From a virus, in IMG/VR virus record IMGVR_UViG_3300048835_000978, positions 1 through 64,000 of that record: a stretch of 64,000 bases of DNA; one strand, given 5' to 3'. Both the position numbers and the translations under genes were made by a program. Positions 1 to 38,848 of the stretch are shown piece by piece. Within the stretch, counting starts at the first letter, position 1. Each line of letters opens with the position of its first letter. The notes beneath the pieces were generated by a model. The model saw only the letters and a program-made list of their open reading frames with translations. It made no database searches and was not told the origin of the DNA.

Positions 1-615
1 CGGCAGCAACAGTTCCGTGATTGCCGCCAAGCGATCAAGTCTGGCGTGACCCCAGGTGCAATGCAGTGTTACCACCAGCGGGCATTGAGTGTCGCACCAC
101 AGCGGAACTTCTTCAGTCAACGGCTCGGTGTGATCATAGAGCGGCCGGAACGCCGGCAGGTGAACGACATGCCCATCTACGGCAACTGGATAGTTTCCAT
201 GCTGGTGATGCTCGTGATCGAAACCGCCGAAGAAGTAGCCTTCGTGATCGGCGGCAGTCGCCAAGTTCCAGTCTCGCACAGTGGCGGGAGTGTACTTATT
301 GAAGGGGGCGATATACGACCGGCATTTTGCCGCCGTGCGGAAGCGATGGATTGCATCGGCCATTTGCTGGCGAGTGACGTTCGCGCCTCGCGCATGATCG
401 CAGCCATGGACCGATAGCTCCTCGCGGCCAGCGAGATTCTCTTGGAGCCATTTCAACTCGCGATCCCCAATGCAGCTTGGGATGGCCCCGTAATAGACCG
501 GCAAGCCCGACAGGCCGGCAGCCTTGCGCCAGGCGGCGAAGTATTCCAGGCCGTAGTCGGGGCTGTGATCCGGGAGCCAGCCTACGTCATCGACACGCAA
601 GATAAAGCGGGCCAT
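1..615 (-). CDS. Polysaccharide deacetylase-like protein (3' end beyond window)
   Basis: An open frame of 205 codons starts with ATG at 615 and runs off the left edge. The N-terminus reads FILRVDDVG, with the Asp-Asp pair (residues 9-10) expected of the first NodB-type motif, followed by HGCDH (residues 70-74), matching the metal-binding H-x3-H motif, an APFNKYTP segment (103-110) like the third motif, and VVTLHCTWGH (181-190) near the last motif. These are the marks of the carbohydrate esterase 4/DUF2334 fold, which removes N- or O-acetyl groups from glycans. It starts just after the stop of the upstream glycosyltransferase gene, so it probably belongs to the same glycan-modification operon. 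The substrate is unknown and the C-terminus is not seen. Confidence 0.72.
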   Translation of the reverse strand, partial: MARFILRVDDVGWLPDHSPDYGLEYFAAWRKAAGLSGLPVYYGAIPSCIGDRELKWLQENLAGREELSVHGCDHARGANVTRQQMADAIHRFRTAAKCRSYIAPFNKYTPATVRDWNLATAADHEGYFFGGFDHEHHQHGNYPVAVDGHVVHLPAFRPLYDHTEPLTEEVPLWCDTQCPLVVTLHCTWGHARLDRLAAITELLLP

Positions 616-617
616 GC

Positions 618-1382
618 CTACCTCGAAACGAGTGATTGCCAGCCGATTTGATCGGCCCAGTGAATGAATTCGCTGCGCACTTGCTTGAATAAAGGCATGC
701 TCGACAAAGCGTCGTTGTCGGGAAGCTCCATGCCGTTGATCCAGGTCGACCGATCCAGGTTTTCAGGCAAGATGTACGTCGGCAGATTGAGGGCGCGCTG
801 CAACCCCAGGCAAAGAGACAGGTCGTCGTGGCGAGCGACTTCGATGCGAGCCTGCTCGCCGTATGCGTCGATCAAGTCCCAGTTGAACTGAATGACGTGA
901 TGCAAGTCGCGCGTGCGGAAAAAGTGCGCGCGGCAGCCCATGTCGACCCGAATGGGCTCTCGCTGGAGCGGCACGTTACGGGCCTTGTAATGCCAGGGCG
1001 GGACACGATGACCGTGATACTCAAAGATGCGGCCGATCTGGCAGAGCGTGGAGAATTGCCCTCGCAGCTTTTTGGCGGTGTCCTGGAAAGTTTCGAGCAT
1101 CCGCCAGCCGGGTGACAGGTCGTCATCCAGAAACAGGCAATACTCCGCATAACTGGCCAGCGCGGGGATAAACCGGCAGGGCGGCCCGTAGTTCGGCCGC
1201 TCGACGCGAAAGTAAGCATCGAACCGGCAAGCGTCACAGGCCGGCAGCTCGTATCCACTCTCGGCGTTGTCGATGCAAGCGACTGCGATCGGTGCCACTG
1301 ACTGCCGCTTGATCGCGTACAAAATCTGCGCGATGTTTTGCGGCCTGCGCCAGTTCGTGAGGACGATCATGCAGTCACTCAT
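618..1382 (-). CDS. Glycosyltransferase, GT-A fold (family 2-like)
   Basis: A 254-residue protein whose N-terminus (CMIVLTNWRRPQNI) and acidic motif LFLDDDLSPG (Asp 86-88) are typical of nucleotide-sugar-dependent GT-A glycosyltransferases; the triple Asp would bind the metal and the sugar nucleotide. No membrane segment is seen, so it should act in the cytoplasm. Its start overlaps the stop of the preceding gene by four bases and its stop lies two bases before the next start, indicating translational coupling within the glycan cassette. Donor and acceptor cannot be told from sequence. Confidence 0.78.
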   Translation of the reverse strand: MSDCMIVLTNWRRPQNIAQILYAIKRQSVAPIAVACIDNAESGYELPACDACRFDAYFRVERPNYGPPCRFIPALASYAEYCLFLDDDLSPGWRMLETFQDTAKKLRGQFSTLCQIGRIFEYHGHRVPPWHYKARNVPLQREPIRVDMGCRAHFFRTRDLHHVIQFNWDLIDAYGEQARIEVARHDDLSLCLGLQRALNLPTYILPENLDRSTWINGMELPDNDALSSMPLFKQVRSEFIHWADQIGWQSLVSR

Positions 1383-2014
1383 TGATTCAGCTCCTGAACG
1401 CCGTAGAACATGGCGCTGTCATCGGACGTGCGCCAGCGAGCGCCGTCCTCGACGCGCCAGACACGCTCCATCGTCTTGTAGTCCGGCGGCTGCTCGAATG
1501 GCGTAACGCAAGAGGGCTCGAACAGGCAGATGCGGTTGTTCGGTTGCGCGGCAAACGTGCCGTCATCCAGCGCGATCAGGTGATGACACTTCCAGCCAGC
1601 ATTCCCAGCGGATTCAGCGGCGGGCGAACCCCAGTAGTCAACCGTAAACATGTAGACGCCGCCGATCACTTTGCGATCGGCCAGGCTGACGCGGCAGCGC
1701 ATGCCAGACAGATAGGCGTACTCGACCACAGCGACATTCGCCGAGAAGCAATCCCAGAGCTGCCGGCGCCAAGGGTCATCATGCGGCACGCTGGCCACAC
1801 GGTCGCGGCGGTGCGCCAGCGCGTGAATCGGCAGTCGGCCGATATGGGCTCCGTTGTTCAATAGGACGTTGAAGCCCAGCGCTCGGCCTGGAATGGACGT
1901 GATCGAGTGACAGATGCCGGGCGCGTACTCGCCCATGCCCTTCTGGAAGTTGTAAAGGAACTCACTTCGCACCAGCACTTCGAACCGCGGGCAGTCGGCG
2001 TTTAGCTCCGGCAT
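1379..2014 (-). CDS. Hypothetical protein in glycan cassette
   Basis: A 211-residue protein with no motif I recognise. It is rich in aromatic residues and Cys, has no signal peptide or membrane segment, and carries two patches that look enzymatic (LNNGAHIGRLPIHAL and a HHLIALDDGTF stretch). It overlaps the glycosyltransferase genes on both sides, so it is certainly transcribed with them. A role in sugar or virion modification is inference from position only. Confidence 0.6.
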   Translation of the reverse strand: MPELNADCPRFEVLVRSEFLYNFQKGMGEYAPGICHSITSIPGRALGFNVLLNNGAHIGRLPIHALAHRRDRVASVPHDDPWRRQLWDCFSANVAVVEYAYLSGMRCRVSLADRKVIGGVYMFTVDYWGSPAAESAGNAGWKCHHLIALDDGTFAAQPNNRICLFEPSCVTPFEQPPDYKTMERVWRVEDGARWRTSDDSAMFYGVQELNQ

Positions 2015-2739
2015 GTCAACGCCTCCTGTGCGGCTCGCTCCAGCTTGAATGGCGGAACGTGCTCCCAGCCGTTTCCGCGAGCGCTGATCGGCATGAAGTG
2101 CGCTCCAGTGCGGACGGCACAGAACCAGAGAAACGTGTCGTGCGAATAGATGGGCGGCGGGTGCTTGGCGGCGATCGCAGCCATGCTACGAGTCCAGTTG
2201 GTCTGCCCGAAGAACATCCAGGACGTGATTCGCTTGTGCATGACGCGATCGCCATGGCGAGCAAACCCCGGATCAACCAACTCTTCACCCAATTTGATGC
2301 GGTTAGCCCAGGCTTCAAGCTGCTCGATGGCGTTGGCAGGCTTGGTGTATCCCCAGCGCGGCGCGATGAAAGAATAGTTCCGCTTGAACCACCAGTCGGA
2401 GTACCACTGCGACGGCTCGCGGGCGATGACATCCGTGTCGAGCTTGAGATAGTACGGAGTCTGGATGTAGTCGGCCGCCGCCACGAATGACCACAGCATC
2501 TTGGCTCGCTGGTTTGGAAACGAACCAAACCTGCGCGGCGGCCAGCTCGCAAACGTCACATGCGGATGATCGATGCCGATGATGTCGAGCGTGCTGGGTC
2601 CACAACTTGACGTATCAAGCATGACCAGCAGCGGATGCTCCATAATCTCCGGCCGGTGCGCTCGCCACGTCGGCCAGGACAATTGAAGTTCGCGCGCGTG
2701 TTCGGCGTCCACTGCCAGAATGAGAGTCCAGTCCTGCAT
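2002..2739 (-). CDS. Glycosyltransferase with DxD motif
   Basis: A 245-residue protein. The segment YYLKLDTDV (DTD at 101-103) is a classic metal/nucleotide-sugar DxD motif preceded by hydrophobic beta strands, and a later DTFLWF stretch could supply the base. This fits a small GT-A glycosyltransferase. It overlaps the next gene by 13 bases. A promoter-like element about 110-130 bases upstream (2843-2882, inside the preceding gene) could give it an extra transcript. Specificity unknown. Confidence 0.72.
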   Translation of the reverse strand: MQDWTLILAVDAEHARELQLSWPTWRAHRPEIMEHPLLVMLDTSSCGPSTLDIIGIDHPHVTFASWPPRRFGSFPNQRAKMLWSFVAAADYIQTPYYLKLDTDVIAREPSQWYSDWWFKRNYSFIAPRWGYTKPANAIEQLEAWANRIKLGEELVDPGFARHGDRVMHKRITSWMFFGQTNWTRSMAAIAAKHPPPIYSHDTFLWFCAVRTGAHFMPISARGNGWEHVPPFKLERAAQEALTCRS

Positions 2740-2764
2740 GGGCTCCGTGCCCCTCGATCGACTG

Positions 2765-3577
2765 CTAGTCGTTTAGTTCGTACCAGCCCCTGGCGTCCAG
2801 CAACCCTTGCTGAATACCCCCGGAAGCCGCACCGATGGCGGCGTTGTAAGAGCATGATTCAAAAACCGTCAACCCAGATTTTTGGTTGCAATTGAAAATT
2901 TTCAGCCCGGCGGAATCGAAGTGAGGTTTCAGGTCGGCCAGCATTTGGGCCATCTTTTTGTAGATGCTGTTATTGGCGTGCTCGTACCACTCGGCGTGGT
3001 GCTGGCCCAGCGCCACGTCAAATGCGTAGGGCCGGTCAGCGCGCATGGAAAAGTCGCAGCCCAACAGGTAGATCGTGCGAAAGCCCAGCACGTACAACAC
3101 CTTGAGGGCCGCGAACAGTACGTCCTTACAATAGGGGTAAGTGCCCCCTCGCACGTCGTTGTGCCCCCAGTTGACCGACGCCTCCTCGATCCACACTGCC
3201 GGCCGAAAGTGATCATTGCGCGCGTAGCCAACGACCCCTGGCAGGGTGCCAGCGACGATCGGAGCGGCCGGATAAGCCGGCCCGTTTGGCGTCTGGCGGC
3301 GGATACCACAATCGAGCTGCGTTTGCGGCACGAACTTCATCGCTGCCGGATCGAGCCAGATCGCATCGTGAATCTTCCAGGCGCGATCGACGTAGATCAT
3401 CGAATTGCAGCGAACCAGGGCGGGCGAATTGTTCACGCCCATGACGTAGCAGCCTCGCCGCGTTAGCAGCGAAAGATCGAGCTGTTTTGCGCTAGGTCCA
3501 GACAGCAACAAAAATGCCTGGCCATTGCGATACAGATTGGCCAGCGATAGCGGCTGGCCCTGGCCGCTTACGAACAT
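2765..3577 (-). CDS. MptE/DUF115-like glycan enzyme
   Basis: About 270 residues from ATG 3577 (a TTG at 3595 would add six). A glycine-rich LLLSGPSAKQLD loop near the N-terminus, GVNNS shortly after, and YLLGCDFSM in the C-terminal third match the pattern of DUF115/6-hydroxymethylpterin pyrophosphokinase MptE-like and GT29/GT42 sialyltransferase-like proteins, families found in flagellin and surface glycosylation loci and in phages. No transmembrane segment. The surrounding kinase, adenylyltransferase and glycosyltransferases support a role in building or attaching a surface sugar. The family call is by pattern and not certain. Confidence 0.5.
   Translation of the reverse strand: MFVSGQGQPLSLANLYRNGQAFLLLSGPSAKQLDLSLLTRRGCYVMGVNNSPALVRCNSMIYVDRAWKIHDAIWLDPAAMKFVPQTQLDCGIRRQTPNGPAYPAAPIVAGTLPGVVGYARNDHFRPAVWIEEASVNWGHNDVRGGTYPYCKDVLFAALKVLYVLGFRTIYLLGCDFSMRADRPYAFDVALGQHHAEWYEHANNSIYKKMAQMLADLKPHFDSAGLKIFNCNQKSGLTVFESCSYNAAIGAASGGIQQGLLDARGWYELND
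2843..2882 (-). promoter_or_regulatory. Promoter-like element, copy a
   Basis: On the minus strand: AAAAATCTGGG, then TTGACGG, then TTTTTGAA; 18 bases after TTGACG (2867-2872) comes TACAAC (2843-2848) as a possible -10. It lies inside the 3' part of the MptE-like gene and could drive the glycosyltransferase starting at 2739. It belongs to a family of six similar sites in the window. The match may partly reflect coding sequence. Confidence 0.35.
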
Positions 3578-4509
3578 GCCACCGTGCTCGCCCAATCCCT
3601 GATTTCATGCGGATAGATCGGCTCCGTGCCAATCCGCTCGACGCTCATTGACGCCACCACACTCGCGAACTGACATGCTTCAAAAGTTGGGACGCCGGCC
3701 GCAGTGCAACACGCCAGCGCCGCCAGATAGCAGTCACCGGCGCCGGTCGTATCGGCGACCCGTGTTGAAATCGCTGGAATCCATACCGGCGACGCATGGC
3801 CTGTCCTCCAGAGCTGCGATCCTTGTTCCGCGTGGGTGATGATGCGAATTGGCGAGCAGGCGGATTGCCCGTAGTCCTCTGCGAAAAACAGATGACTTCC
3901 CTTCACGCAATGCGCCCCGTCGTACCGCGACCATTCGGTGCGCTTGTGCGGATCAACCAGCACCTGATTGCCGCTCTCGCAGAGTCGCCGAGCCTGCCGG
4001 TAATTCACGGCCCCTCGCCCATAATCGGCCAGAGCGATCGTCTTGACATCCATGCCTAAGACTTGATCGACGAGCTGTTCCGACAACAAGGCGGGAACCA
4101 GACCGTCCGGTTCGTAGCTGCCTTGCATCCGCACGTCGGAACCAATGACCGATCGCGTTTTGACCGGATTGCGCCAGTCTTTAGTGTAGATCAATCGCAG
4201 CGAAAGATTCTCGATGCTCTCCAGGTAGTCGACCGGCTCATGGGCAGCGGCGAAGAAGATCGAGTGAAACTCCACGCGAGCCCCCAGCGCGGCGGCGTAG
4301 CAGGCGACGTTGGCAGCCCCGCCGGGGATCGTTGCCTTGCGAATCAGATCGCAGGACACATGCTGCGCATTGCGCTTGGATGCACGCGGATTCGCCAGAT
4401 GCAGATACAGATCGACGAGCGTGTCGCCGCACACCTGAATCTGGACCCCGCGAATCGAGTCCAAGATGGCGTCCACATCACACTTGGCCGTAATACTTGG
4501 TGTCTTCAT
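3568..4509 (-). CDS. PfkB-family sugar kinase, HldE kinase-domain-like
   Basis: 313 residues from ATG 4509; an upstream TTG would only add a stretch read through the preceding gene. PfkB signatures are present: PGGAANVA (GGAAN 63-67), the glycine-rich sugar-binding site, and DTTGAGD (253-259), the ATP/anion-hole motif with the catalytic Asp. The overall pattern (VCGDTLVDLY at the N-terminus, ADYGRG in the middle) resembles the kinase half of HldE/RfaE, which makes D-glycero-D-manno-heptose 1,7-bisphosphate. The matching adenylyltransferase half is a separate gene at 5011-5403, with a sulfotransferase-like gene between them. The second phosphatase step (GmhB) is not in the window and would come from the host. 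Confidence 0.82.
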   Translation of the reverse strand: MKTPSITAKCDVDAILDSIRGVQIQVCGDTLVDLYLHLANPRASKRNAQHVSCDLIRKATIPGGAANVACYAAALGARVEFHSIFFAAAHEPVDYLESIENLSLRLIYTKDWRNPVKTRSVIGSDVRMQGSYEPDGLVPALLSEQLVDQVLGMDVKTIALADYGRGAVNYRQARRLCESGNQVLVDPHKRTEWSRYDGAHCVKGSHLFFAEDYGQSACSPIRIITHAEQGSQLWRTGHASPVWIPAISTRVADTTGAGDCYLAALACCTAAGVPTFEACQFASVVASMSVERIGTEPIYPHEIRDWASTVACS

Positions 4510-5014
4510 TCGTCCACTCAATCGTTGGTGCTTTAGGAAGTCGCAGTGTCTCGGTGATCCATTGGCGGTATTCCGGCACTCCCAGCCGCGCGTAGGACAC
4601 GATGACAAACGGCAGCCGGAGGCGAGTCACGCCAAAGAAAATCTCTTTGTATGCCCGTGTAGTGTTTTGTCGCGCGTGATTCAGGTCGCTGACATGGCCA
4701 GCGCGAACCTGACTGCGCTCAATGGCGTATTGATCGCGGACCATGACCAGGACAGTGGTGTCCCGATAACCCCAGGCCCGCAAGTTACTGACGATCTGCA
4801 TGAAATTCGGCCAATGTCCCCCATGCGGAAAAGAGCGATAAAACGCCAGGCGATCCGGCTGCGGCTCAGGTTTGACGATCGGGTAATCTGGCAGCGACCC
4901 GTCGATGGGTTGATCGATTTTCCCCCGGCCCCAACAGCCGGCATCGACCAGCATGGAAACCATGAGGCGATTGCCGCTCGATTCAGGTCCGCAAACAAAA
5001 AACGCACGCCTCAT
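4478..5014 (-). CDS. Sulfotransferase-like P-loop protein
   Basis: A 178-residue protein starting MRRAFFVCGPESSGNRLM: a hydrophobic strand followed by a GPESSG loop, the pattern of the PAPS 5'-phosphosulfate-binding loop of sulfotransferase-like proteins often seen in phage and bacterial glycan loci. Downstream a TVLVMVRDQY segment resembles the 3'-phosphate-binding RDP-type motif. It is shorter than full sulfotransferases (usually 250 or more residues), so it may be a minimal or diverged member. It overlaps the genes on both sides, which are the two halves of an HldE-type enzyme. Confidence 0.55.
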   Translation of the reverse strand: MRRAFFVCGPESSGNRLMVSMLVDAGCWGRGKIDQPIDGSLPDYPIVKPEPQPDRLAFYRSFPHGGHWPNFMQIVSNLRAWGYRDTTVLVMVRDQYAIERSQVRAGHVSDLNHARQNTTRAYKEIFFGVTRLRLPFVIVSYARLGVPEYRQWITETLRLPKAPTIEWTNEDTKYYGQV

Positions 5015-5403
5015 CGCAGCCTCGCGATCGTCTGACTGGTTGAATGCCCTGGCACGAGCGGCAACAGGACCAGTCGCCGAGCATGCCCTGCCCCGGTTAC
5101 GTCGCGACCGGCGTAGTCACCCCCCTTGACCAATACGTCAGGTTGAATCCGCTTCACCAACTCCGACAACTCCTCTTCGGTGTCAAACACATGAACTTCG
5201 CTTACATAACGCAAAGCGGAAACGATGCAAATACGTTCGTGCTGACTGTAGATCGGCCGCCCCGACCCTTTGAGTCTTTGCACCGATTGGTCGCTGTTGA
5301 TCGCCACGACAAGGTGATCGCCCAGCAGTCGGCAGCGGCGCAGGAAGTCGACGTGGCCGGCGTGCAATAGGTCAAAACAGCCATTGGTCATCACGGTGAG
5401 CAT
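5011..5403 (-). CDS. Heptose-1-phosphate adenylyltransferase-like (HldE C-terminal domain)
   Basis: A 130-residue cytidylyltransferase-fold protein with the nucleotide-binding HxGH-type motif GCFDLLHAGH (8-17), the KGGDY strand (93-97) and GHSTS (119-123), each characteristic of the adenylyltransferase domain of HldE/RfaE. It would couple heptose 1-phosphate to AMP from ATP, giving ADP-heptose. It is a stand-alone domain here, whereas most proteobacteria fuse it to the kinase found at 3568-4509. It overlaps the GT9-containing gene upstream by 13 bases, so donor synthesis and transfer appear co-translated. Confidence 0.87.
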   Translation of the reverse strand: MLTVMTNGCFDLLHAGHVDFLRRCRLLGDHLVVAINSDQSVQRLKGSGRPIYSQHERICIVSALRYVSEVHVFDTEEELSELVKRIQPDVLVKGGDYAGRDVTGAGHARRLVLLPLVPGHSTSQTIARLR

Positions 5404-7484
5404 GGTCGGTCCAAGCGAAACAGTCCGATTTCATGGTCGCGGTAGATCGTTAATTTCCAGTCTGGGAGCTTCCGGCGAACCAGCTTGATGAACCGGTTGC
5501 GATCGTGCCATTCGCCGACGATCGTGCGGATGCGGTGCATCTGCTGACAGTGCTCGATGATCGAGAACTCGCCGCCTTCACAATCCAACTTCAATAGGAT
5601 GTCATGGCAATCGGTTTTCGACAGAATCTCATCCATGGTCACACGCGGAACAACTCTGCCAAGCTGACTGACGCGACAGCCGCCGGTGTGTTCCTTTGTC
5701 CCTAGCGAGACCTCCAAGTGGATTGGCTCAGGGTCATAGGTGCAGGCAGCCTGGATGATGCTGGCTCGCGGGCAATTGCGATGCGCTACGGCGACGTTCT
5801 CTTCGGCAGGCTCGACGGCGATCAGCGCCGCGGACGGCCAGAGCTGCGAAGCCAGCTGCGTGAAGAAGCCGCAATGCGCCCCGATGTCGATGACGCACTG
5901 CGGGCGCCAGCCAAGCTGGCGGACGCGGTAGTCGTCCTGCTCGAAAATCTCCCGCCAGATATACAAGTCTTCGGCTTTCCACCGACGGCGCAGCCACGAT
6001 CCGTCGACGCGCACCAGCTCGCCATCGGGCGATGGCCCGCCGGCGGACAGCAGCCTCTCGGCCGTCGATGCCAGGTCGCCGCCCAGGTCGTCGTATATCC
6101 GGTATCGATAGTGGTCATCGAAGACCCGGCCGCCGAAAGTTCGGTTCTTGCGCGGTAGGAATTGAACGTGGTTTCTCGGAACCAGGTGGGTGACGTTATC
6201 GGCAATGTTATAGCTATGTGCAGGATGATGATTGAGCCACACTCCAATGGTCGGCGTCGCCGTGGCGCCGGCGACGTGCAACGGCCCAGAATCGACCCCG
6301 ACAAACAGCGTGCAGCGACTAATAAGGGCTGCCAGGCTCGTTCCATGTTGTGGCTGATGGTAATTGCCGGCACTTAGGCTGACAGCGCCATGCAACTCGG
6401 CATTTCCGTCGAAATTGACGACGACGGGCGTGTAGCCCATGTCGCGGACTTTCTGCGTCAACTGTCCCCATGTAGATCCGGGCGGATTCTTGGCGGTCGG
6501 AAAGCTGCGGCCCCGCTGATGAATCAGCACCACATTTCCATATGGAGCCAGCCATCGATCGGCATACTCGACCTCTTGGTCACTGGGCGACAACTGCCCG
6601 TAGGTGCTCAACTCGGCAGACGGAGTTACGCCGAGAATGCTTAGCAGGAACAATTGGGTCGTATTGCATGGCACCTTCACGTAACATTGCCTGGGCCTCA
6701 TAAATCCAGGCTGGTGCAATACGTCGTATTGAGAATGGTCTGGCGGTTGCTCTAAGACGCGTTCACAGAGTCCTTGGAAGAGCGATCGATGATAAACGTG
6801 TGTCAACACGTCAACCTTCCATCGCGGACGAAAGCGAGCCAGGTGCATGAGCGCCGAGCGAAAGCACATCGAATCGCCCAGCCCCTTAAGGATCGTTAGG
6901 CACACCGTTCTCTCGGTGAGGTCTACGGCTGTCTCCGATGGCGCTGACTCAAATGGCGCTGGCTCGCGCGTTACCAGCTTGATCCGGCAATCCTCCAGCG
7001 GCTCCGACTGGTCTTCGTCGCCTGCGCTTTCTGCCGCCAGTTCAATCGCTGGCCAGTGTCCTAGCGGGCAGTCGCTCTTGCCGTCGTTCTGCACGAGTCC
7101 TGCTTTGAGCGCGACGACGCACTTGCACTTGCCGCACCGCTCGACCATCCCCAACGTGACCACCAGCTGTCCGCTGGGGCACTTTCCATGCGGGCCGGAG
7201 CGACAGATCGCCCGCCGCTCCTCGTACTGCTCTTGCGTCGTGGTCTTAAAGCCGCGTGCGGTCCAATAGGCGATTGATTTAGCGAAACCCCATGCCGTCT
7301 CAAACAATTTGACGACGCGATTATCGCACGGCTCGCCGCACGGCTTTTTTTTGTCCGTCGTGGTCTCGGGGAGAGATGGGGTACTGCCGCAGCGACAACG
7401 AATACTCGATAGATCGACCGGAGAGCGGCGGCGCGACCCGCATGTGTCGCACTGATACCAGTCGTCCTGTAGGTGTCTATACAT
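5391..7484 (-). CDS. Zinc-ribbon / GT9 heptosyltransferase-like / FkbM methyltransferase fusion
   Basis: A 697-residue three-part protein. Residues ~1-150 hold Cys clusters (CDTCGS, CRCGS, then an IC..C..C..CKC..CPLGHW array) of a zinc-binding module common in phage glycan proteins. Residues ~190-480 form a GT-B glycosyltransferase of the GT9/heptosyltransferase type: LTILKGLGDSMCFRSAL near its start and FVGVDSGPLHVAGA near its end, the donor-binding signature. Residues ~545-697 are an FkbM-type SAM methyltransferase (VIDIGAHCGFFTQL, then LLKLDCEGGEF). It probably adds a heptose-like sugar and O-methylates it. It starts 16 bases after the preceding structural gene and overlaps the adenylyltransferase gene. 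Confidence 0.82.
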   Translation of the reverse strand: MYRHLQDDWYQCDTCGSRRRSPVDLSSIRCRCGSTPSLPETTTDKKKPCGEPCDNRVVKLFETAWGFAKSIAYWTARGFKTTTQEQYEERRAICRSGPHGKCPSGQLVVTLGMVERCGKCKCVVALKAGLVQNDGKSDCPLGHWPAIELAAESAGDEDQSEPLEDCRIKLVTREPAPFESAPSETAVDLTERTVCLTILKGLGDSMCFRSALMHLARFRPRWKVDVLTHVYHRSLFQGLCERVLEQPPDHSQYDVLHQPGFMRPRQCYVKVPCNTTQLFLLSILGVTPSAELSTYGQLSPSDQEVEYADRWLAPYGNVVLIHQRGRSFPTAKNPPGSTWGQLTQKVRDMGYTPVVVNFDGNAELHGAVSLSAGNYHQPQHGTSLAALISRCTLFVGVDSGPLHVAGATATPTIGVWLNHHPAHSYNIADNVTHLVPRNHVQFLPRKNRTFGGRVFDDHYRYRIYDDLGGDLASTAERLLSAGGPSPDGELVRVDGSWLRRRWKAEDLYIWREIFEQDDYRVRQLGWRPQCVIDIGAHCGFFTQLASQLWPSAALIAVEPAEENVAVAHRNCPRASIIQAACTYDPEPIHLEVSLGTKEHTGGCRVSQLGRVVPRVTMDEILSKTDCHDILLKLDCEGGEFSIIEHCQQMHRIRTIVGEWHDRNRFIKLVRRKLPDWKLTIYRDHEIGLFRLDRPCSP

Positions 7485-7499: not shown

Positions 7500-8417
7500 T
7501 CAGGCGTTTTGAAAGCTGATCTCGTCAGGAAACGTGCAATCAAAGGTGTCTGAGACACTCTCGGACACCTTGGCGAGCGTCAGTGTCGCCGTGCCAGCGC
7601 ATTGTTGCTGGGTGATATTGTCAAGCTCATAAACCACCCATGTCCGCGGGCAGTCCGCCACGCCGACGAGTGACGCCCGAACCAGGCACGTTCCGGGGTT
7701 CGTGCCCGCCAGTTGTTCAACGACCCAGCTCATCAGGCCCACTACTTCTAGAAAGCTATCGCACGTATTACAGATGTCGCATACCTCGCAATCCCGATTA
7801 GGCCCGATGACGTAAAACGACGCCGACTCCAAGTGGCAGGTGCCCAGCAGTAAAAAATCATCCCATAGAATGGCCGTCAGAGGCACCGTGCCGTCTGGGT
7901 CAGCCAGACTAGCGCAGCATTGGCCGCCCGGATTGACGACCAGCATAGATCGCGCACAGCAGCAGGAAGTGCAGAGTTGGCCGGGGTCTGTGATAGTCCA
8001 GGTGCCGTGCATCTCGTCGGTATCCCAGCAATCGGGGTGCAGGGACGGCACGTCAAACACGGCGCTAAACTCGCCGGTAGTACAATCGACCGTCGCCTGG
8101 AAGTCTGTCGGACGATTCTGGAAAGCATCGCGACAGTAGATGCGGAGCGTCCAGGTCGAAACCTGCAAGTCGCCCACGCAATTCGGGCCGAACTCGACGC
8201 GCGAGACTCTCCCCAGTGGATGACCAGAGTCACTGACGTAGAGGACGTAGCCGATCCAGGCGCCGTACTCGCCCCAAGATCGATCGTAGCGCAGGATGTG
8301 CCGCTTGCCGTTGGGTGCGGTGGCAATCAGGTATTGACTAAGCGGGATATAACAACAGGGTAGCTCAATCATCTCGCATGGGTTGCAGCAACAACCATAG
8401 CTTTGCAGTCCGCTCAT
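7500..8417 (-). CDS. Cysteine-rich putative tail/virion protein
   Basis: A 305-residue protein with about 25 cysteines by my count, many in pairs or triplets (GCCCNPC near the N-terminus, CTSCCC in the middle, CEVCDICNTC later), yet with beta-rich sequence and no catalytic motif. The arrangement suggests metal binding or a disulfide-stabilised particle protein. It lies three bases downstream of a probable tail-tip protein gene and before the glycan cassette, so it is most likely the last virion gene of the tail operon. I do not recognise a family. Confidence 0.6.
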   Translation of the reverse strand: MSGLQSYGCCCNPCEMIELPCCYIPLSQYLIATAPNGKRHILRYDRSWGEYGAWIGYVLYVSDSGHPLGRVSRVEFGPNCVGDLQVSTWTLRIYCRDAFQNRPTDFQATVDCTTGEFSAVFDVPSLHPDCWDTDEMHGTWTITDPGQLCTSCCCARSMLVVNPGGQCCASLADPDGTVPLTAILWDDFLLLGTCHLESASFYVIGPNRDCEVCDICNTCDSFLEVVGLMSWVVEQLAGTNPGTCLVRASLVGVADCPRTWVVYELDNITQQQCAGTATLTLAKVSESVSDTFDCTFPDEISFQNA

Positions 8418-8420
8418 CGG

Positions 8421-9374
8421 CTACTCCGGGCAGCACGCCGACCACACTTCGTAGTGGCGATTAGTGGCGTTGAAGATAGCTCGAAACTCGACGCCGTAAG
8501 CGGCCTCCAGGCAGCCCAGGGGATAGAGCGTGATCTTTCCTGTGTTGGTCCCCATGTCCGATCGTGGCCACTCGCCGTCGTGGCCGGTGACGTTCTCGGC
8601 TTCGACCTCCCATTGGTCGCCCAGTAGCGTGCCGGTGATGTACCGATACCATGTCCCCACGGAAATGACCGTATAAACTTGCAGCTCACTGAATATGTCG
8701 CCCGATCCGACTTGCCCGTCGTCGGTAAGATTGGCTTTTAGTGCAAACCCAAAACAAGCGTTCCCCTTGGGGTCGCCGCCGTCATCTCCAGAGGGAGCTG
8801 TTTCGCCGCGCGCGAACCATTTTCGCTCATCGTCCTGCACGATGATCTGCGGGCCGGGCTTGGTGAGCAATGTCGCCGGATCCACGATCCGGGCGTTGGC
8901 AGCCATGCCTCGGAATAATTCTTCTTCCGGGCGAAACATGACGACTGTAGTGCCCTGGCCGCCAGTGATAATCTCCCAGCGACTAGACTGATAGTTGAAT
9001 TTGGCGTGTACGCGATCCAGTCTGCCCGGACTGGCATCATTGTTCTCTTTGTCTTGAGGGTGATAGAGGCGATATTCCGTCTGGTCGCTCTGGTCAACGT
9101 TATATGTATTCGAGTCGGGATCGAGGACGAGTCGCTTCGCCAGTGCGCTACGCACGTCGTCGCTGCCGTCGATCGCCAAGTCTTCAGTCAGCTCGAACAG
9201 CAAGACTTTTTCGCGATAGCCATCCAGGATGCGCTTGCCGGCGCCATTGTGAAGCATGCCGAGCTTTGGACTGACCGTGGCGTCGTCCACGATGCCCAGC
9301 GCGCGGTTGTAGGCATTCAGCCGATCGGCCGTTATCGAATCGCCTTTAACCCACTTTTTGATGTCTTCAATCAT
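8421..9374 (-). CDS. Putative tail-tip/fibre protein
   Basis: A 317-residue protein opening MIEDIKKWVKGDSITADRLN, a pattern common at the N-terminus of phage fibre-type and planctomycete phage tail proteins (the 'attach to tail' segment followed by polar, aspartate-rich beta sequence). No membrane segment or enzyme motif. It overlaps the upstream gene by four bases. Order after the tape measure and distal tail-like gene supports a tail-tip or receptor-binding role; the exact role is inferred. Confidence 0.5.
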   Translation of the reverse strand: MIEDIKKWVKGDSITADRLNAYNRALGIVDDATVSPKLGMLHNGAGKRILDGYREKVLLFELTEDLAIDGSDDVRSALAKRLVLDPDSNTYNVDQSDQTEYRLYHPQDKENNDASPGRLDRVHAKFNYQSSRWEIITGGQGTTVVMFRPEEELFRGMAANARIVDPATLLTKPGPQIIVQDDERKWFARGETAPSGDDGGDPKGNACFGFALKANLTDDGQVGSGDIFSELQVYTVISVGTWYRYITGTLLGDQWEVEAENVTGHDGEWPRSDMGTNTGKITLYPLGCLEAAYGVEFRAIFNATNRHYEVWSACCPE

Positions 9375-10159
9375 GCGACCATCGCGCTGAACGCTCCGGA
9401 GTTATAGATAGGGTCGCCGTTGACCAGTTGCAGTCGCTCCCACGTTCCAGTGTTGGGCCTCAAAAAGTAGTTCCAATTCAACGCTGTGTTGCCGTTGATA
9501 AACCGCTCCTGGAATTTCATGCTAACCGTCCACGGCATACTGCCACCGGCAGTGACCTCCTGATTCAGCTCGGCGCCAATGAATAACAGCGTCTCGATCG
9601 CAGCGCCTTCGAACGCAACGCTGTTCACCTTGCCGATCAAGCTCCTGATCGCCGAATACCTGGGCGTCGGAACGCGATGGGCGGTGATGGAGTGCTCCAG
9701 CGAAGTGAGAACCTTGCCGGCAGATAAATCCTCGCCAGTCACCAGATTGTCTGAACCGCCACCGGCCCATCGCAGAGCACGCGCTGGCAGAGTCATAAAC
9801 TCGCCACTAATCGAAATCTGTCGCGTCAGAATGTTCGATCCGTTGTGCTCATACGTCTTCGTCTTGTAGTCGACTGTCGCTAGTGCGTTTTGGTAGACGG
9901 ATGGGTAGGCTGATCCGTCGAACTCACCGCCTGTGGTGCCACACAGAGGCTCGAAAAACACGCTGTCGGCATAAAGAACCGAACTGCCGGTCAGTAGCTC
10001 CGGAAGCTGCGGGACGCCTGCGATCGCCAAGGGAAACAGCTCGATATACAGCGGATCGATGTCATCCCAATCGATAATAAACTTCGTGGTGGCCGTCAGC
10101 TCGGCCATGGAGCCACGATACTGCGGCCAGCCTGGAACTTGATCGCGGACGACAGCCAT
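9371..10159 (-). CDS. Putative distal tail/baseplate hub-type protein
   Basis: 262 residues, beginning with ATG 10159 inside TAATG, so that its start shares bases with the stop codon of the tape measure gene. Sequence is beta-rich, with no enzyme motif. The gene directly after the tape measure usually encodes the distal tail (Dit) or a tip component in siphoviruses; the length and the terminal WNYFLRPNTGTWERL segment are compatible, but I see no diagnostic motif, so the call is positional. Confidence 0.5.
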   Translation of the reverse strand: MAVVRDQVPGWPQYRGSMAELTATTKFIIDWDDIDPLYIELFPLAIAGVPQLPELLTGSSVLYADSVFFEPLCGTTGGEFDGSAYPSVYQNALATVDYKTKTYEHNGSNILTRQISISGEFMTLPARALRWAGGGSDNLVTGEDLSAGKVLTSLEHSITAHRVPTPRYSAIRSLIGKVNSVAFEGAAIETLLFIGAELNQEVTAGGSMPWTVSMKFQERFINGNTALNWNYFLRPNTGTWERLQLVNGDPIYNSGAFSAMVA

Positions 10160-12579
10160 TACGCCACCCTCGCACCCATGTTCATTACGTTGTCTGCCGT
10201 CTTCTGTGTGTTGGCCGCGATGCCACCGAGCCTGTCGAGCTGCTGTTTGCCAACATTCTCGATCGACTTCATGGCTCGCACTTCCGGGCTCGCCTTACTG
10301 GCGGCAAACAGAGATTGCTGGATCGACTTTGATCGCTGCACTAGCCCTTCGTAGCCGACCTTGCCCTTCGGCTTGCGTGACAGCGCGCTAGGCGGCGGGA
10401 TGCCTGCCCGCGGCCGCGACCGCAACGGCTCGTCGGGGATGTCCTCGCCACGAATGTTTTGCAGTTTCGCATCCAGGCCGCCATCCGATTCGCCGGCTGC
10501 CTTGGCTGCTGCGCTGGCCTTCTTCGCCCATTCGGTGGCTGGATCGGTTAGCGGCGTGCGCACAAACGGCAAGCCAGCGGTCGCGGGTGTGCCGCCCGTT
10601 GGTGCATTTCCTTCGAGCGTCATATTGGCGTCACGCTCTTTACGCATCTGCTCCTGCACTTTGGCAATCTGCTGCTCGATCGTCGCCGCCTCACGATCGG
10701 AGTCGATCTTGGCTTGCTGGCCAAAGCTCTTGGTCGCCTGAGAGCCGCTTTCCAGCAAGCCGGCGATGCCTTGGGTAATCATTCCCTCTTCGACTTTGGT
10801 GGTAAGGCCAAAACCCTTGTCCATAATCTCATTGTCGCTCATGCTGTTAATTTTTTCACGTTCAGCCTTGAGCTTCTTCATGCGCCGGCTCGACTCGTTG
10901 ATTGCGTTATCCAGCTCCTCTGTTGTGTACTCGTGCCCCTTTTCATCAGTCACTTTGCCGCCCTGTTTTCTGGCGGTTTCAGCCAGTCCGATGTATCGAT
11001 TGCGCAGCCGCTCCTGCTGCTCGGTTTGCTGGCGATTCAGACCGAGCATCCGCGACCGTCTGGCATTCGGATTCTCTTCGTCCTTCCCGCTGATTGCATC
11101 CGCCGCGGCATTCCAGGCTTTCTCCATCAGAACCGGCACTTCCGCCACGAACGCGCCGAGCATGCCCTTCATCTTCTCGATCGCCAGCTTGACGTGCAGG
11201 ACCATCAACTCCCACGTCAACTGCCAGTTGGTGCTAAGCAGGCTAAACTGGTTGAGCAGGCCGGTGACGCCCTTGAATGCGGCATCAACAGCGGTGTTCA
11301 CCGGATCCATCGAGAAGCCGTCCACGATCTTGCTGATCACGGTCGCCACAGACTCGAATACCTGACTGGCCGTGCGCTTCAGGTTGTTCCAGATGTTCAC
11401 GACGTAGACCCACCAAGTCGACCACTCCTCCCGGTTGCGAGCGATCAATTGAGTGATCCACTCCCAGGTCGATGCAGCGGTTTCGGCGATGTAGTTCCAG
11501 GCGCCTGCCGCGACATTCTGAATCTCTTCGTAGGTCGGAATGTACTCGGTGACGAAAGCGATGCCTTGCGCCAGAATCGGGTACATGGCATTCCAGGCCG
11601 CCAAAGCGGCGTTCTTCGACCGCTCCCAAGCGGCGGCAACCCACTGCTGAATCGCCTGTCCGTACTGGGCGACAAACTGGGTGCCACGGTGGATCATCGT
11701 TTCCGCGTAAGTGAAAAAGCTGACCAGGGCCGCCCTGATTGTCTTAACGGCGCTGACAACGGCATCGGAGTTGATGAAATCGAGGAAGTCCTTCGCGCGA
11801 TTCTTGGCGAAGCCGAAGATCGGCCCGCCCAGCTCGCGCTTGATCTGGGACATGCGGTCCTGGATGTTCGACTGAATGCCGGCGAACGTCTTCGACTGCT
11901 CGCTCATCATGCCGCCGTACTTTTTGCGCAGGCCAGCGAAGAAAGTCTCCAGGATGGCGTCGATCTGCATCGTGCCGCCTTGGACTTGCTTCTTCACCTC
12001 CGGCACGCTCTTGCCCATCTGCTCGGCCATGATCGCCCAGAACGGGATGCCAGCATTAGAGAGCTGGAGCACTTCTTGCCCCATGACCTTGCCAGCGTCC
12101 TTCATCTGCTTGACGGCGTAGATGATGCGTTCCATGGCCACGTTAGGACCAAGCGAACTGGACGAGGCCGCCCCGCCCAAGGCTTCCATGATCGAGTTTT
12201 CGCCGACCATCTTCGCCGGGTCGAAGCCGGCCTGGATGAGCTGCTGCACGCCTGGAAACAGGGTTTCCAGCGTGAACGGCGTTTTGATCGCGTACTTCTC
12301 GATTTCGCGCATCATCGCGCGGGCCTGGCCGGCGCTGCCCATCACGACTTTCATGCTGGCCGCGAAGCCCTCGAACTGAGCATTCGTGCGAATCAGCTCA
12401 TTACCCAGCGAACGAATGTCCGTGACCAGCCCGCTAAAGCTGGTCGGCAAGTTGACCGCGGCCAGCATGGAGCCCATCGTGGACTCGACCGCATTGCGAA
12501 TGCGGCCCATGTCACGCTTGATGTTCTCCTGGATGCTCACCAGGATCGATGCTTCGCCGAGCCTTGTGTCGTATCCCAC
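10159..12579 (-). CDS. Tape measure protein
   Basis: An 806-residue protein starting at GTG 12579, with an AAAGG ribosome site eight bases upstream inside the tail chaperone gene. Residues ~60-240 carry the conserved tape-measure N-terminal domain (GQARAMMREIEKYAIKTPF, LQLSNAGIPFWAIMAEQMG, then VQGGTMQIDAI), the middle has long Trp- and Ala-rich helices with hydrophobic stretches (~275-420), and the C-terminal third is charged coiled coil with RNRYIG and KLKAEREKI repeats. It sets tail length and is ejected into the host envelope. At about 0.15 nm per residue its length would fit a tail of roughly 120 nm, shorter than lambda's. Position after the G/GT chaperone pair is canonical. Confidence 0.92.
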   Translation of the reverse strand: MGYDTRLGEASILVSIQENIKRDMGRIRNAVESTMGSMLAAVNLPTSFSGLVTDIRSLGNELIRTNAQFEGFAASMKVVMGSAGQARAMMREIEKYAIKTPFTLETLFPGVQQLIQAGFDPAKMVGENSIMEALGGAASSSSLGPNVAMERIIYAVKQMKDAGKVMGQEVLQLSNAGIPFWAIMAEQMGKSVPEVKKQVQGGTMQIDAILETFFAGLRKKYGGMMSEQSKTFAGIQSNIQDRMSQIKRELGGPIFGFAKNRAKDFLDFINSDAVVSAVKTIRAALVSFFTYAETMIHRGTQFVAQYGQAIQQWVAAAWERSKNAALAAWNAMYPILAQGIAFVTEYIPTYEEIQNVAAGAWNYIAETAASTWEWITQLIARNREEWSTWWVYVVNIWNNLKRTASQVFESVATVISKIVDGFSMDPVNTAVDAAFKGVTGLLNQFSLLSTNWQLTWELMVLHVKLAIEKMKGMLGAFVAEVPVLMEKAWNAAADAISGKDEENPNARRSRMLGLNRQQTEQQERLRNRYIGLAETARKQGGKVTDEKGHEYTTEELDNAINESSRRMKKLKAEREKINSMSDNEIMDKGFGLTTKVEEGMITQGIAGLLESGSQATKSFGQQAKIDSDREAATIEQQIAKVQEQMRKERDANMTLEGNAPTGGTPATAGLPFVRTPLTDPATEWAKKASAAAKAAGESDGGLDAKLQNIRGEDIPDEPLRSRPRAGIPPPSALSRKPKGKVGYEGLVQRSKSIQQSLFAASKASPEVRAMKSIENVGKQQLDRLGGIAANTQKTADNVMNMGARVA

Positions 12580-12954
12580 TTAATGAGCCTTTCGCGACTG
12601 CTGGGACCGCTGATAACGCTGGGTGACAGTAGACGGCCTCCGCGTCGGCGGCGGCTTATTGCCTTGCTTTTTCTGCTGAAAATCAGCGGCTTCTGCGCGG
12701 CTCATTTTCTGGGTGCGACTACTCCCCTTGATCGGCTTGCCAGGGAACATGGGAACGTTGATCTTGTCCGGCTCCATCGTGAAGATGATGAGCTGGTAGG
12801 GCGTCCAAAGTCTGACTTCCTGGATCGTCTTGCCGTGGCCGCCAAAGTCCGGCGCCATGCAAGCGATCGCGACTAGGTGTGGCCAGTTCACCCGGCTGCC
12901 GGAACCGCCTCGATCGGCTGATTCGTCGGCGGCGTCGGTGACTGGCCAGAGGAG
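12580..12954 (-). CDS. Tail assembly chaperone, frameshifted (T-like) part
   Basis: This frame is open from the slippery site at 12954 to TAA at 12580 and is in -1 register to the upstream chaperone frame. A GTG at 12891 overlaps the upstream stop (GTGA), but the frame is open well above it, so the natural product is most likely the fusion of 149 residues of the upstream protein plus 124 from this frame (273 residues). The T part is basic at its C-terminus (KKQGNKPPPTRRP, QRSQQSRKAH), as is usual for the tape-measure-binding extension of such chaperones. Confidence 0.82.
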   Translation of the reverse strand, partial: LLWPVTDAADESADRGGSGSRVNWPHLVAIACMAPDFGGHGKTIQEVRLWTPYQLIIFTMEPDKINVPMFPGKPIKGSSRTQKMSRAEAADFQQKKQGNKPPPTRRPSTVTQRYQRSQQSRKAH

Positions 12955-13400
12955 TTTCCCACCGCATCCAGTCCGTTGATCTGTTGCTGCTTGTCGCGCA
13001 GGTCGCGAAACTCGGCAGTGTTTTTCGATCCCTCTTCGACGATGTATTCCTTCACGGCGGCGAACGTGAACCGTCCGGGATACACCCGCTCCAGCGGCGT
13101 CCAGACGCTCATGGCCATTCCCTCGATGTCATGCTCGATAAAGCGAAGCACGACATCCGGGTCGATCGCAAACGCCTCGGCGGCCGACTTGACGGCCTGT
13201 TCCCAGCGACGATCTTGTTCGGCGGGCGGGAAGTAATGCAGTGACTTGGCGGCCAATTCCAGCGGATTCGCCCGCCGGCTGTTCATCCAGTGGCCAATCG
13301 TCGCAATGTCATCCATGACCATTGGCGGCATTACGACTGTCTGTCCAGCAATGGTGACGGGCACTCCCGCGCCGAGTGCCAAACCTAAAGCAGTGCTCAC
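12888..13400 (-). CDS. Tail assembly chaperone, G-like
   Basis: A 170-residue protein with an alanine-rich helical core (ELAAKSLHYFPPAEQDRRWEQ, then a WTPLERVYPGRFTFAAVKEY segment) and a low-complexity polar C-terminus, located between the tail tube gene and the tape measure gene. This is the place and size of lambda gpG. Ribosomes that slip at 12954-12960 produce the longer G-T fusion. The protein helps wrap the tape measure during tail assembly and is not expected in the finished virion. Confidence 0.82.
   Translation of the reverse strand: MSTALGLALGAGVPVTIAGQTVVMPPMVMDDIATIGHWMNSRRANPLELAAKSLHYFPPAEQDRRWEQAVKSAAEAFAIDPDVVLRFIEHDIEGMAMSVWTPLERVYPGRFTFAAVKEYIVEEGSKNTAEFRDLRDKQQQINGLDAVGNSSGQSPTPPTNQPIEAVPAAG
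12954..12960 (-). promoter_or_regulatory. -1 ribosomal frameshift site GGGAAAC
   Basis: The minus strand reads GGGAAAC with zero-frame codons GGA AAC beginning at 12959 (13400 minus 441, an exact codon boundary), i.e. the X XXY YYZ arrangement. Slipping by -1 enters a frame that is open through 12891 to 12580. Lambda uses GGGAAAG at the same point of its G and T genes. The site is codon 148-149 of the upstream gene, 66 bases before its stop. Confidence 0.9.
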
Positions 13401-13451
13401 TAAGCCCTCCAGGTGAGTTGTGGACTCACTTCACGCCAAACGAGACGGCGA

Positions 13452-13835
13452 TCAGGTGTCGGTCCAGGCCAGATGCGAAGTCCAGGTGGCTTCCCAACCA
13501 ACGATATCTCCGGTGTCGATGTCAACCTCGAAGCTGAGGCCGTCGATCTTGCAGGGGTAGCTGGTGGATTTACTGGCGGTCAGGTACTTGGACAGCGTGA
13601 CCGCATCGCCGTCATCCATGTGATCCGTGATCGGATCAAGGGGGTCGTATTTGCCGCGGACGGTTCCACTGGCTCGCTTGGTTCCCACGACCGCAGCCTG
13701 GAAGCCGTCCGTCGTGTTCGCCGCGTAGGTGTGGACTTCGGGTTTTCGATCCACGTCGAAGCCAGTGACTTCGACGATTTCAGACGAACCAATTTTGACT
13801 GTCGAACCAGTTGAGGAAACGGCTCCAGATGACAT
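13452..13835 (-). CDS. Major tail tube protein
   Basis: A 127-residue, beta-rich, acidic protein starting MSSGAVSSTGSTVKIG with EIVEVTGFDVDRKPE, a form typical of small siphovirus tail tube proteins, and ending with a WEATWTSHLAWTDT strand. It lies between the tail terminator-like gene and the chaperone pair, the canonical place. Flanking gaps of ~50 and ~75 bases leave room for its own ribosome site, as expected for an abundant protein. Confidence 0.72.
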   Translation of the reverse strand: MSSGAVSSTGSTVKIGSSEIVEVTGFDVDRKPEVHTYAANTTDGFQAAVVGTKRASGTVRGKYDPLDPITDHMDDGDAVTLSKYLTASKSTSYPCKIDGLSFEVDIDTGDIVGWEATWTSHLAWTDT

Positions 13836-13909
13836 GCCGCGAACTCCTTTGTTTCAAGAGGAAATTCGCGAGCGTGAAACGGCCCCCACGTCGTTGGTTG
13901 TTCGAGTTG

Positions 13910-14338
13910 TTATCGCCCGGTCAGCGCCTTGCGCCGGACGACGAGGTATTCAATGGCTGCTCGCCCTACCTTTTTGTCGTCGATCGTCATTTCTTCGGCT
14001 TGCCTACGCTTGCTGGTCATCGAGCCGTTGGCGATCGTCAAGACCGCCGCGTCAATGACGCTGGCGGCCTCGGCCATGGCAGCGCCAGCCTGCTCGATTG
14101 TCTCGTGGTAAAAGTGGACCTTGAATTCATGCCGCCAGTATTCCGACGACGTAGTTGTCAGTGTTCGCCGGTTGTCGATGCTCTCGAACACGGCGTAAGG
14201 GAAGGTTACTTCCGAGCCATCGGTGTTCTGTTTGGGGCGCTCCCCAAAAAACGGCCCGTCGATGTCCGACAGTCCGCTCACGTCGTCCCAAGCTACTTTG
14301 ACGGCTGCAAAAACGTCAAGGGATGATGTATCGGGCAT
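13910..14338 (-). CDS. Tail terminator/completion-like protein
   Basis: A 142-residue protein resembling the DUF3168/minor tail U type: N-terminal helix (DVFAAVKVAWDDV), a FPYAVFESIDN strand and a long central helix (ETIEQAGAAMAEAASVI). Such proteins cap the tail tube and join the head. It starts one base before the end of the HK97 gp10-like gene. The call rests on length, position and this pattern. Confidence 0.62.
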   Translation of the reverse strand: MPDTSSLDVFAAVKVAWDDVSGLSDIDGPFFGERPKQNTDGSEVTFPYAVFESIDNRRTLTTTSSEYWRHEFKVHFYHETIEQAGAAMAEAASVIDAAVLTIANGSMTSKRRQAEEMTIDDKKVGRAAIEYLVVRRKALTGR

Positions 14339-14734
14339 TTAGCGTCGCCTCCGGCCAAAGCAGCCCATAATCTGGCCAGCGGCCATGAACAGCGAGCGGG
14401 TCAGGAATGGCCGCGTTTTCTCGACAAACGGCGCGTGCTTGGCGTCGGCGTACAGCGACAACGTGAGCTTGGAGCGGTTGACGGTGTATCGCGTGCGGCG
14501 TTGCAGCTCGCCGGTACGGCGGTGCGGAAACTCGCCGGGCATGCTGGCGGGCGGGAACGGCGTCGACAGATTCTTGCGAAGCTGGCGTAAGGCGACCTTC
14601 CCCGCGTCGTCAAGCCGATTGGCAATCTCACGGCGAATCAGGTATTCCGCCGGACGGAGCTTCCAGTAAAACTTGGCCGCGAAGGATAAAAGGGTAAGTC
14701 CAGTTGAATTGACCCCGATCTGCGATTTAGCCAT
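14339..14734 (-). CDS. HK97 gp10-like head-tail/tail completion protein
   Basis: 131 residues from ATG 14734, eight bases inside the end of the upstream gene. It is basic with helices NRLDDAGKVALRQLRKNL and the turn-rich PHRRTGELQRR strand (HRRTGEL being typical of gp10-like proteins, in which a conserved 'TG.L..S' segment follows the first helix), and AKHAPFVEKTRPFL, where 'YA..VE.GT' is usual. This fits the tail-completion family of siphoviruses. Upstream reading in the same frame is Arg/Ser-rich and not coding in style. Confidence 0.68.
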   Translation of the reverse strand: MAKSQIGVNSTGLTLLSFAAKFYWKLRPAEYLIRREIANRLDDAGKVALRQLRKNLSTPFPPASMPGEFPHRRTGELQRRTRYTVNRSKLTLSLYADAKHAPFVEKTRPFLTRSLFMAAGQIMGCFGRRRR

Positions 14735-15101
14735 TAGCCGCCTCCAGCCGTCCCTTGTCCTCTTCGAATTCCGCGATCCACAACATCGGGGTCGCCACGC
14801 CGGGCCGGCCTTCGTCGTAAGCCCCCAGCAATCGCAAAACGTGGACGGTGCCCGCGGCATCGGTCCAAGTGAAGTGTGAATCGTACTCCAGCGATGGATT
14901 CGAAGAAAAGAATGCCATGTGCGTCGCGCGCTGGTCGCGAGCCTTGAAGCCCAGCGATTCGGACGCCGAGACAGTCTGCATGAGACAGGTTTTGTTGCTG
15001 GCGGTCCCTGGCGTGTACGCCACGCCCATCGCCGAGCCGACCGAGACGGCGATCGGCTTTTCAACGAGCGTGTGACCAGTGCAGAGTGATGCGATGCTCA
15101 T
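14727..15101 (-). CDS. Putative head closure/stopper protein
   Basis: About 124 residues from ATG 15101 (a TTG at 15128 would extend into the previous gene). Beta-rich with a HFTWTDAAGTVHVLRLLG strand. Position between the connector-like gene and the gp10-like gene is that of a head-tail stopper. No diagnostic motif. Confidence 0.55.
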   Translation of the reverse strand: MSIASLCTGHTLVEKPIAVSVGSAMGVAYTPGTASNKTCLMQTVSASESLGFKARDQRATHMAFFSSNPSLEYDSHFTWTDAAGTVHVLRLLGAYDEGRPGVATPMLWIAEFEEDKGRLEAANG

Positions 15102-15106
15102 GTCGG

Positions 15107-15883: not shown

Positions 15884-15894
15884 GAATTCACCGC

Positions 15895-16791: not shown

Positions 16792-16792
16792 G

Positions 16793-17011
16793 TCAGTCCT
16801 TCACGGTCCACTCGACCAGCGTTGATTTCAGTTCTTCGATTCTCGCCGCGATGGTTTGCAACTCCTGCTGCTGCTGCACTAGCGTCACTTCGCGGTGATG
16901 CTGCTGCTTCGTCAATAACTCAATCTCCCGCTCGATGGCGGCGCGCTGCTCGTCCACCAGCTTCTTGCGGCGTTCGTCGGGAGTGGGTTGGGGGGTTGGT
17001 TCGTCGGTCAT
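16793..17011 (-). CDS. Small coiled-coil protein
   Basis: 72 residues: a proline/threonine start, then a continuous charged coiled coil (REIELLTKQQHHREV, then QQQELQTIAARIEELKSTL). No known family. It ends two bases before the stop-adjacent neighbour downstream, so it is cotranscribed with the 17012-17329 gene. Confidence 0.55.
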   Translation of the reverse strand: MTDEPTPQPTPDERRKKLVDEQRAAIEREIELLTKQQHHREVTLVQQQQELQTIAARIEELKSTLVEWTVKD

Positions 17012-17329: not shown

Positions 17330-17366
17330 GTGTTCTCTCCTGGTTGTCTGCCCCAGGTAAAAGTTC

Positions 17367-17657: not shown

Positions 17658-17725
17658 TTTCGTTCTCCTGTTGGTTGTTGGTTACGTTACTGTCGTGATC
17701 GACTCTGTGCCGTGCGGTCGGTTTA

Positions 17726-17751: not shown

Positions 17752-17761
17752 GACTGTTTTG

Positions 17762-18940: not shown

Positions 18941-18949
18941 TGGTGCCCC

Positions 18950-19189: not shown

Positions 19190-19258
19190 GGGTTATGTCT
19201 CACGAAAGGCAGGGAAACTTGATATTCTGCAAAGTGGTGAGGGGGTGAGCATGGGCTG

Positions 19259-38847: not shown

Positions 38848-38848
38848 G

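Follow-up and report, generated by a model that had tools for sequence, protein, structure and literature searches.

A phage-borne, probable glycan-modification cassette with a divergent HldE-type kinase, an HldE-type adenylyltransferase and a GT9-FkbM fusion next to tail genes

The window analysed here, a stretch of 64,000 nucleotides, corresponds to the first part (positions 1-64,000) of a virus contig that is 86,345 bp long and was classified as linear; nearly all of its genes lie on the minus strand. The phage identity of the contig is clear from its hallmark genes, which include those for a tape-measure protein (PF20155), a prohead protease, a portal, a head-tail adaptor and tail proteins. 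Immediately downstream of the tail and tape-measure genes, positions 1-7484 hold nine co-directional minus-strand ORFs, mostly overlapping or abutting, which are the final genes in the reading direction and form the operon at the end of the tail region that the initial annotation had described. Position 1 of the window is an end of the contig, which thus stops inside the cassette, and the left flank of the cassette is unreadable because the window starts at the first base of the contig. The features of this region are the following:

1-615, minus strand: polysaccharide-deacetylase-like ORF, cut by the contig end (motifs only: DDVG, SVHGCDHA)
618-1382, minus strand: putative GT-A transferase (DDD motif only)
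1379-2014, minus strand: virus-type phrog_3704 protein within the cassette (phrog_3704, 9e-51)
2002-2739, minus strand: putative GT-A transferase (DTD motif only)
2765-3595, minus strand: glycosyltransferase-like protein (phrog_4603, annotated alpha-2,3-sialyltransferase, 4.1e-10)
3568-4509, minus strand: divergent PfkB kinase of the HldE N-domain type, 313 aa (TIGR02198, AlphaFold model)
4478-5014, minus strand: 178-aa ORF, sulfotransferase-like by a P-loop-like motif only (GPESSGNR)
5011-5403, minus strand: stand-alone adenylyltransferase of the HldE C-domain type, 130 aa (TIGR02199, PF01467, phrog_7878)
5391-7484, minus strand: three-part fusion, 697 aa, with a Cys-rich N-terminus, GT9 and FkbM (PF01075, PF05050, fkbM_fam)
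7500-12579, minus strand: upstream neighbours of the cassette, namely the tape-measure gene (PF20155) and three ORFs of the tail region

A scan of IMG/VR with the tape-measure protein gave a single match, record 3300048592_000429, which is 100% identical to positions 10643-22579 of the window over 11,937 bp and is therefore the same phage assembled twice. This second assembly does not extend the left end because it terminates within the tape-measure gene. Single-sequence scans of IMG/VR returned no relatives of the GT9-FkbM, kinase or tail3 proteins.

Several other genes of this phage deserve mention. The tail-region ORF at 7500-8417 (minus strand) has a Cys-rich N-terminus (GCCCNPC...CC), and proteins resembling it by eye occur in the IMG/VR contigs L005, L009 and L010. 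These three contigs and L006 also carry, at about 8000-10400, a full-length fused HldE after a gene that looks by eye like ThyX. Elsewhere on the minus strand of the window, the phage encodes a ParB-like protein adjoining a PAPS-reductase-domain protein (48336-50729), an ankyrin-repeat protein (59112-60176) and an SPFH/Band-7 protein (38287-38883).

The first question raised by such a cassette is that of its ownership. The unseen left flank, with the contig ending within the cassette, and the bacterial origin of the top relatives of the adenylyltransferase by identity (up to 54%) would fit a host LPS locus lying beside an integrated prophage. This explanation is nevertheless very improbable. 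The GT9-FkbM gene, the first of the cassette, begins only 15 bp after a tail-region ORF, and the phrog_3704 gene sits among the glycan genes. Codon usage in the cassette is like that of the core phage genes (RSCU correlation of 0.956; GC3 of 0.71 vs 0.73), and no match to an integrase was found. Moreover, 80 bacterial HldE loci contained homologues only of the kinase and the adenylyltransferase, plus weak GT9 matches; the other cassette proteins had no homologues across these loci, and there was no synteny. A flanking host locus, which the initial annotation had named as the finding that would overturn its phage-borne reading, was rejected on the embedded phrog_3704 gene, the codon usage, the missing integrase match and a gene order not shared with bacterial HldE loci. 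The cassette genes are real and phage-owned.

The phrog_3704 protein encoded at 1379-2014 is not a known glycan gene product. Its family comprises 114 phage records and at least 595 IMG/VR stretches, and no member was found in 14 control cellular genomes. In more than 100 records from cyanophages, pelagiphages and other phages, the family is labelled PurM or, later, 'ferredoxin', and under the PurM label it has been counted among purine-synthesis auxiliary genes. However, six members gave no significant Pfam match, neither to AIRS nor to ferredoxin. The AlphaFold model is beta-rich, with weak Foldseek matches to tandem Tudor/SH3-like domains. The PurM label of this family looks wrong.

The product of the GT9-FkbM gene combines a Cys-rich region (residues about 1-145), a heptosyltransferase-type GT-B domain of the GT9 family (about 190-440) and an FkbM-family methyltransferase domain (about 530-665). 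The GT9 domain matches PF01075 far above chance, at 6.2e-11 (42.5 bits vs a cut-off of 22 bits), with both GT-B halves aligned and with the GLGD and DSGPLHVA motifs, and the FkbM domain matches PF05050 (7e-7) and fkbM_fam (1.5e-13). The initial annotation had recognized a GT9-type transferase here but had missed both the fused methyltransferase and the Cys-rich N-terminus. Its adenylyltransferase is borne out: the ORF at 5011-5403 matches TIGR02199 (1.5e-40, far above chance), PF01467 (4.4e-20) and phrog_7878 (8.9e-37) in NCBIfam, Pfam and PHROG, respectively. TIGR02199 (RfaE domain II) is by far the best family, although its score of 138.3 bits lies under the curated cut-off of 181.5 bits. 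The protein keeps 36 of 40 near-invariant HldE columns, including HxGH and KGGDY, and also has the C-terminal STS motifs. Its closest cellular relatives are mostly fused HldE proteins, nearly all of the best 80 bacterial loci having an ORF long enough, and its identity to the relatives in these loci does not exceed 54%. As judged from its sequence, homology to the HldE C-domain is secure.

The kinase is a more ambiguous member of its family. It matches TIGR02198 (RfaE domain I) at 4.3e-30, likewise far above chance, but with 104.9 bits against a curated cut-off of 345 bits, and its AlphaFold model (pLDDT of 90.7) predicts a PfkB/HldA fold, the top PDB match being HldA (4e84, E-value of 3.4e-25), ahead of other PfkB kinases. 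Its active site was compared with those of 62 bacterial HldE kinases and with a set of 58 distinct virus-contig kinases in which it was itself included. In E. coli numbering, the catalytic Asp of GAGD and the K106 and R108 positions are retained, whereas the NxxE motif, R118 and D120 are lost, with S..F and Q/S found instead. N195 and E198 of NxxE are present in 57 of the 58 phage kinases, the window kinase being the only one without them, and R118 and D120 are present in 56. The window kinase is thereby the most divergent of the compared set at otherwise invariant active-site positions. A frameshift was considered as the reason for the loss of NxxE and rejected, as no alternative reading frame restores the motif. 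The HldE kinase-like gene of the initial annotation therefore holds at the level of family and predicted fold, but heptose-kinase activity is doubtful because NxxE and Arg118/Asp120 are lost.

These losses imply that the kinase either has a changed substrate or activity or is being lost, and they weaken the reading in which the phage makes ADP-heptose by itself. One explanation, which we regard as unlikely, is that the kinase has been repurposed for another sugar phosphate, the final product then being an ADP-sugar other than heptose. The loss of near-invariant residues in a protein that has kept its catalytic Asp and its fold would fit such a change, as would a second kinase that departs at positions 118 and 120 as well (L209, 5147-5932). 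On the other hand, the neighbouring adenylyltransferase retains nearly all HldE-invariant residues, and the fold of the kinase is closest to that of HldA. The L209 contig carries two adenylyltransferase/kinase pairs, at 4308-5932 and 7989-9117. Equally unlikely is that the kinase is a decaying remnant, leaving only the adenylyltransferase and the transferases to work on host heptose-1-phosphate: NxxE is gone and the stretch that follows it is shorter than in E. coli HldE, but the 313-aa ORF is intact and overlaps its neighbours, the PfkB fold is confidently predicted, and codon usage is that of the phage core.

The remaining ORFs are less easily placed. The product of the ORF at 2765-3595 shows, besides its phrog_4603 match, a weak and sub-threshold similarity to WaaZ (0.0069). 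The ORF at 2002-2739 gave a sub-threshold Pfam match to DUF6492 (0.099) and no significant match to a family, a PDB entry or a phage protein, and the same searches (Pfam, PHROG and NCBIfam for families) were negative for the ORF at 618-1382. No Pfam, PHROG, NCBIfam, significant PDB or phage match was obtained for the sulfotransferase-like ORF at 4478-5014, and the truncated deacetylase-like gene at 1-615 matched no curated family, NodB included, and had no significant PDB or phage match. The motifs that had led to a sulfotransferase-like gene, a deacetylase-like gene and two further glycosyltransferases being proposed are indeed present, GT-A-like in the case of the latter two; since no significant match accompanies them, these four names are motif-based.

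Taken together, the genes are probably best explained as a phage-owned glycan-modification cassette, in which host-made heptose-1-phosphate would be converted to an ADP-sugar, transferred by the GT9 domain and methylated by the FkbM domain. This best explanation starts from the homologies, the operon layout, the phage linkage and the pattern of conserved and lost residues, and reaches substrates, acceptor and benefit by inference. The adenylyltransferase would turn a sugar-1-phosphate, most likely heptose-1-phosphate made by the host, into the ADP-sugar; the GT9 domain would move the sugar onto an acceptor, the fused FkbM domain would methylate the transferred product, and the adjoining transferase-like genes may extend or decorate the glycan. 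The kinase would act at an upstream step, phosphorylating a sugar phosphate in the manner of HldA but with altered activity or substrate. GmhA, GmhB and, if needed, HldD would be supplied by the host. The earlier suggestion that the cassette could make ADP-heptose and attach it thus holds for phage-borne sugar activation and transfer, whereas ADP-heptose itself is not established as the product, given the divergence of the kinase, the greatest in the compared set, at otherwise invariant active-site positions. A further variant, in which a phage-specific pathway derived from HldE provides a non-heptose ADP-sugar that GT9-FkbM installs and methylates on the virion or on the host, seems rather improbable to us.

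As for the acceptor, we lean towards a glycan of the host envelope; the benefit would then be superinfection exclusion or masking of the receptor. The tail-linked position of the cassette nevertheless makes decoration of the virion a real alternative, if a less probable one: the same chemistry would then modify a tail or head protein, and the sugar would serve for shielding or adhesion of the particle. Tail genes immediately precede the cassette and share its strand, so that late co-expression is likely, and in the contigs L004 (3300002231_000932), L198 (3300008516_001273) and L215 cassettes of a similar kind lie within the module of head and connector genes. Against this alternative, neither an acceptor protein nor a glycosylation site could be identified, and comparable cyanophage clusters have been read as host LPS modification (PMC3037559, PMC7824862).

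The gene content of the cassette can be set against that of other viruses. Neither GmhA, GmhB, HldD nor a cupin is encoded in the 86-kb contig, which may be incomplete, and a complete ADP-heptose pathway with GmhA, GmhB and HldD is accordingly not seen in it. That the host would supply the GmhA and GmhB steps, as initially proposed, agrees with their absence from the contig, but HldD is absent too and would also have to come from the host. Our survey covered 95 virus entries with an adenylyltransferase (the 80 best loci of one IMG/VR scan, 12 loci of a second one, the window contig, P-SSM2 and S-SSM7), a few contigs being counted twice. A kinase match was found in 75 of the 95, a strong HldD match (E-value below 1e-50) in 16 and a GT9 match, in some cases weak, in 16; a cupin is present in 46 virus loci. 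The description of the gene set as unusually complete for a phage was wrong, as P-SSM2, S-SSM7 and several IMG/VR contigs add a heptose-epimerase homologue. Among the latter, L189, L195 and L197 resemble the window in having GT9, adenylyltransferase and kinase genes in one operon, but are more complete, with a strong HldD homologue (E-values of about 1e-92 to 1e-95), a HAD-like gene recognized by motif and, in L189 and L197, a cupin.

The cassettes of L004, L198 and L215 likewise have GT9 and adenylyltransferase genes in a structural gene block, placed however after head and connector genes instead of tail genes. In L004 and L198, the kinase gene adjoins the adenylyltransferase gene, and GT2 and GT4-GT9 genes are also found beside genes of the portal/capsid region; no kinase was matched in the short L215 contig. 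The GT9 domain of L004 is fused to a GT4 domain and not to FkbM, and both L004 and L198 have a cupin beside the adenylyltransferase, unlike the window contig. With the location of these two in the portal-capsid-connector region, the cassette is seen next to structural genes in a different phage as well. If functional, HldE-derived sugar activation with GT9 transfer would thus recur, next to structural genes, in phages that differ from the cyanophages of the original description, and would amount to a general strategy for surface glycans. The NxxE-less kinase, for its part, is a natural variant for probing the role of NxxE in heptose kinases.

A small conserved cupin near the phage adenylyltransferase/kinase pair is encoded in L004 (9633-10004), L198 (7648-8004), L189 (5910-6245), L197 (4918-5262) and P-SSM2 (13423-13779), and might be a sugar isomerase replacing GmhA. 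The P-SSM2 protein annotated as phosphoheptose isomerase (YP_214542.1, 13098-13442) instead matches TIGR01689, a family of HAD-type phosphatases of capsule biosynthesis (1e-8, under the curated cut-off); it has no SIS domain, and GmhA (PF13580) is absent from P-SSM2.

None of the papers searched treats a phage ADP-heptose pathway as such; related clusters have been described. LPS genes are mentioned for deep-sea viruses (PMC9529941), and in jumbo phages the combination of PfkB kinases, HIGH nucleotidyltransferases and glycosyltransferases has been interpreted as surface modification against superinfection (PMC7824862, section 3.4.10). The kinase and nucleotidyltransferase families seen in the window (T4-GC 304/305; cluster 304/305/307/308) are also part of cyanophage LPS clusters (PMC3037559). 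In the LPS cluster of P-SSM2, S-SSM7 and S-SM2, a stand-alone HldE-C-type nucleotidyltransferase likewise adjoins an HldE-N-type kinase, and the glycan cluster of P-SSM2 also lies after tail-fibre genes. By contrast with the window, P-SSM2 encodes a HAD phosphatase (the TIGR01689 match above), a cupin and a heptose-6-epimerase homologue (TIGR02197, 209.9 bits), and S-SSM7 has a similar gene set; P-SSM2 has only a weak GT9-like match, whereas GT9 is above the cut-off in the window. The window shares homologues of the kinase, the adenylyltransferase and GT9 with the bacterial heptose pathway of the LPS core (HldE, HldD, WaaC/WaaF), but differs from it in its split genes, its divergent kinase, its lack of GmhA, GmhB and HldD, and its additional FkbM domain and unclassified transferase-like genes. 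All components of the phage LPS/capsule-modification clusters delineated in PMC7824862 (PfkB kinase, HIGH nucleotidyltransferase and glycosyltransferases) are present in the window. The cassette therefore belongs to a known type of phage surface-glycan cluster, but with an unusual kinase: those of the P-SSM2, S-SSM7 and S-SM2 clusters keep the NxxE motif.
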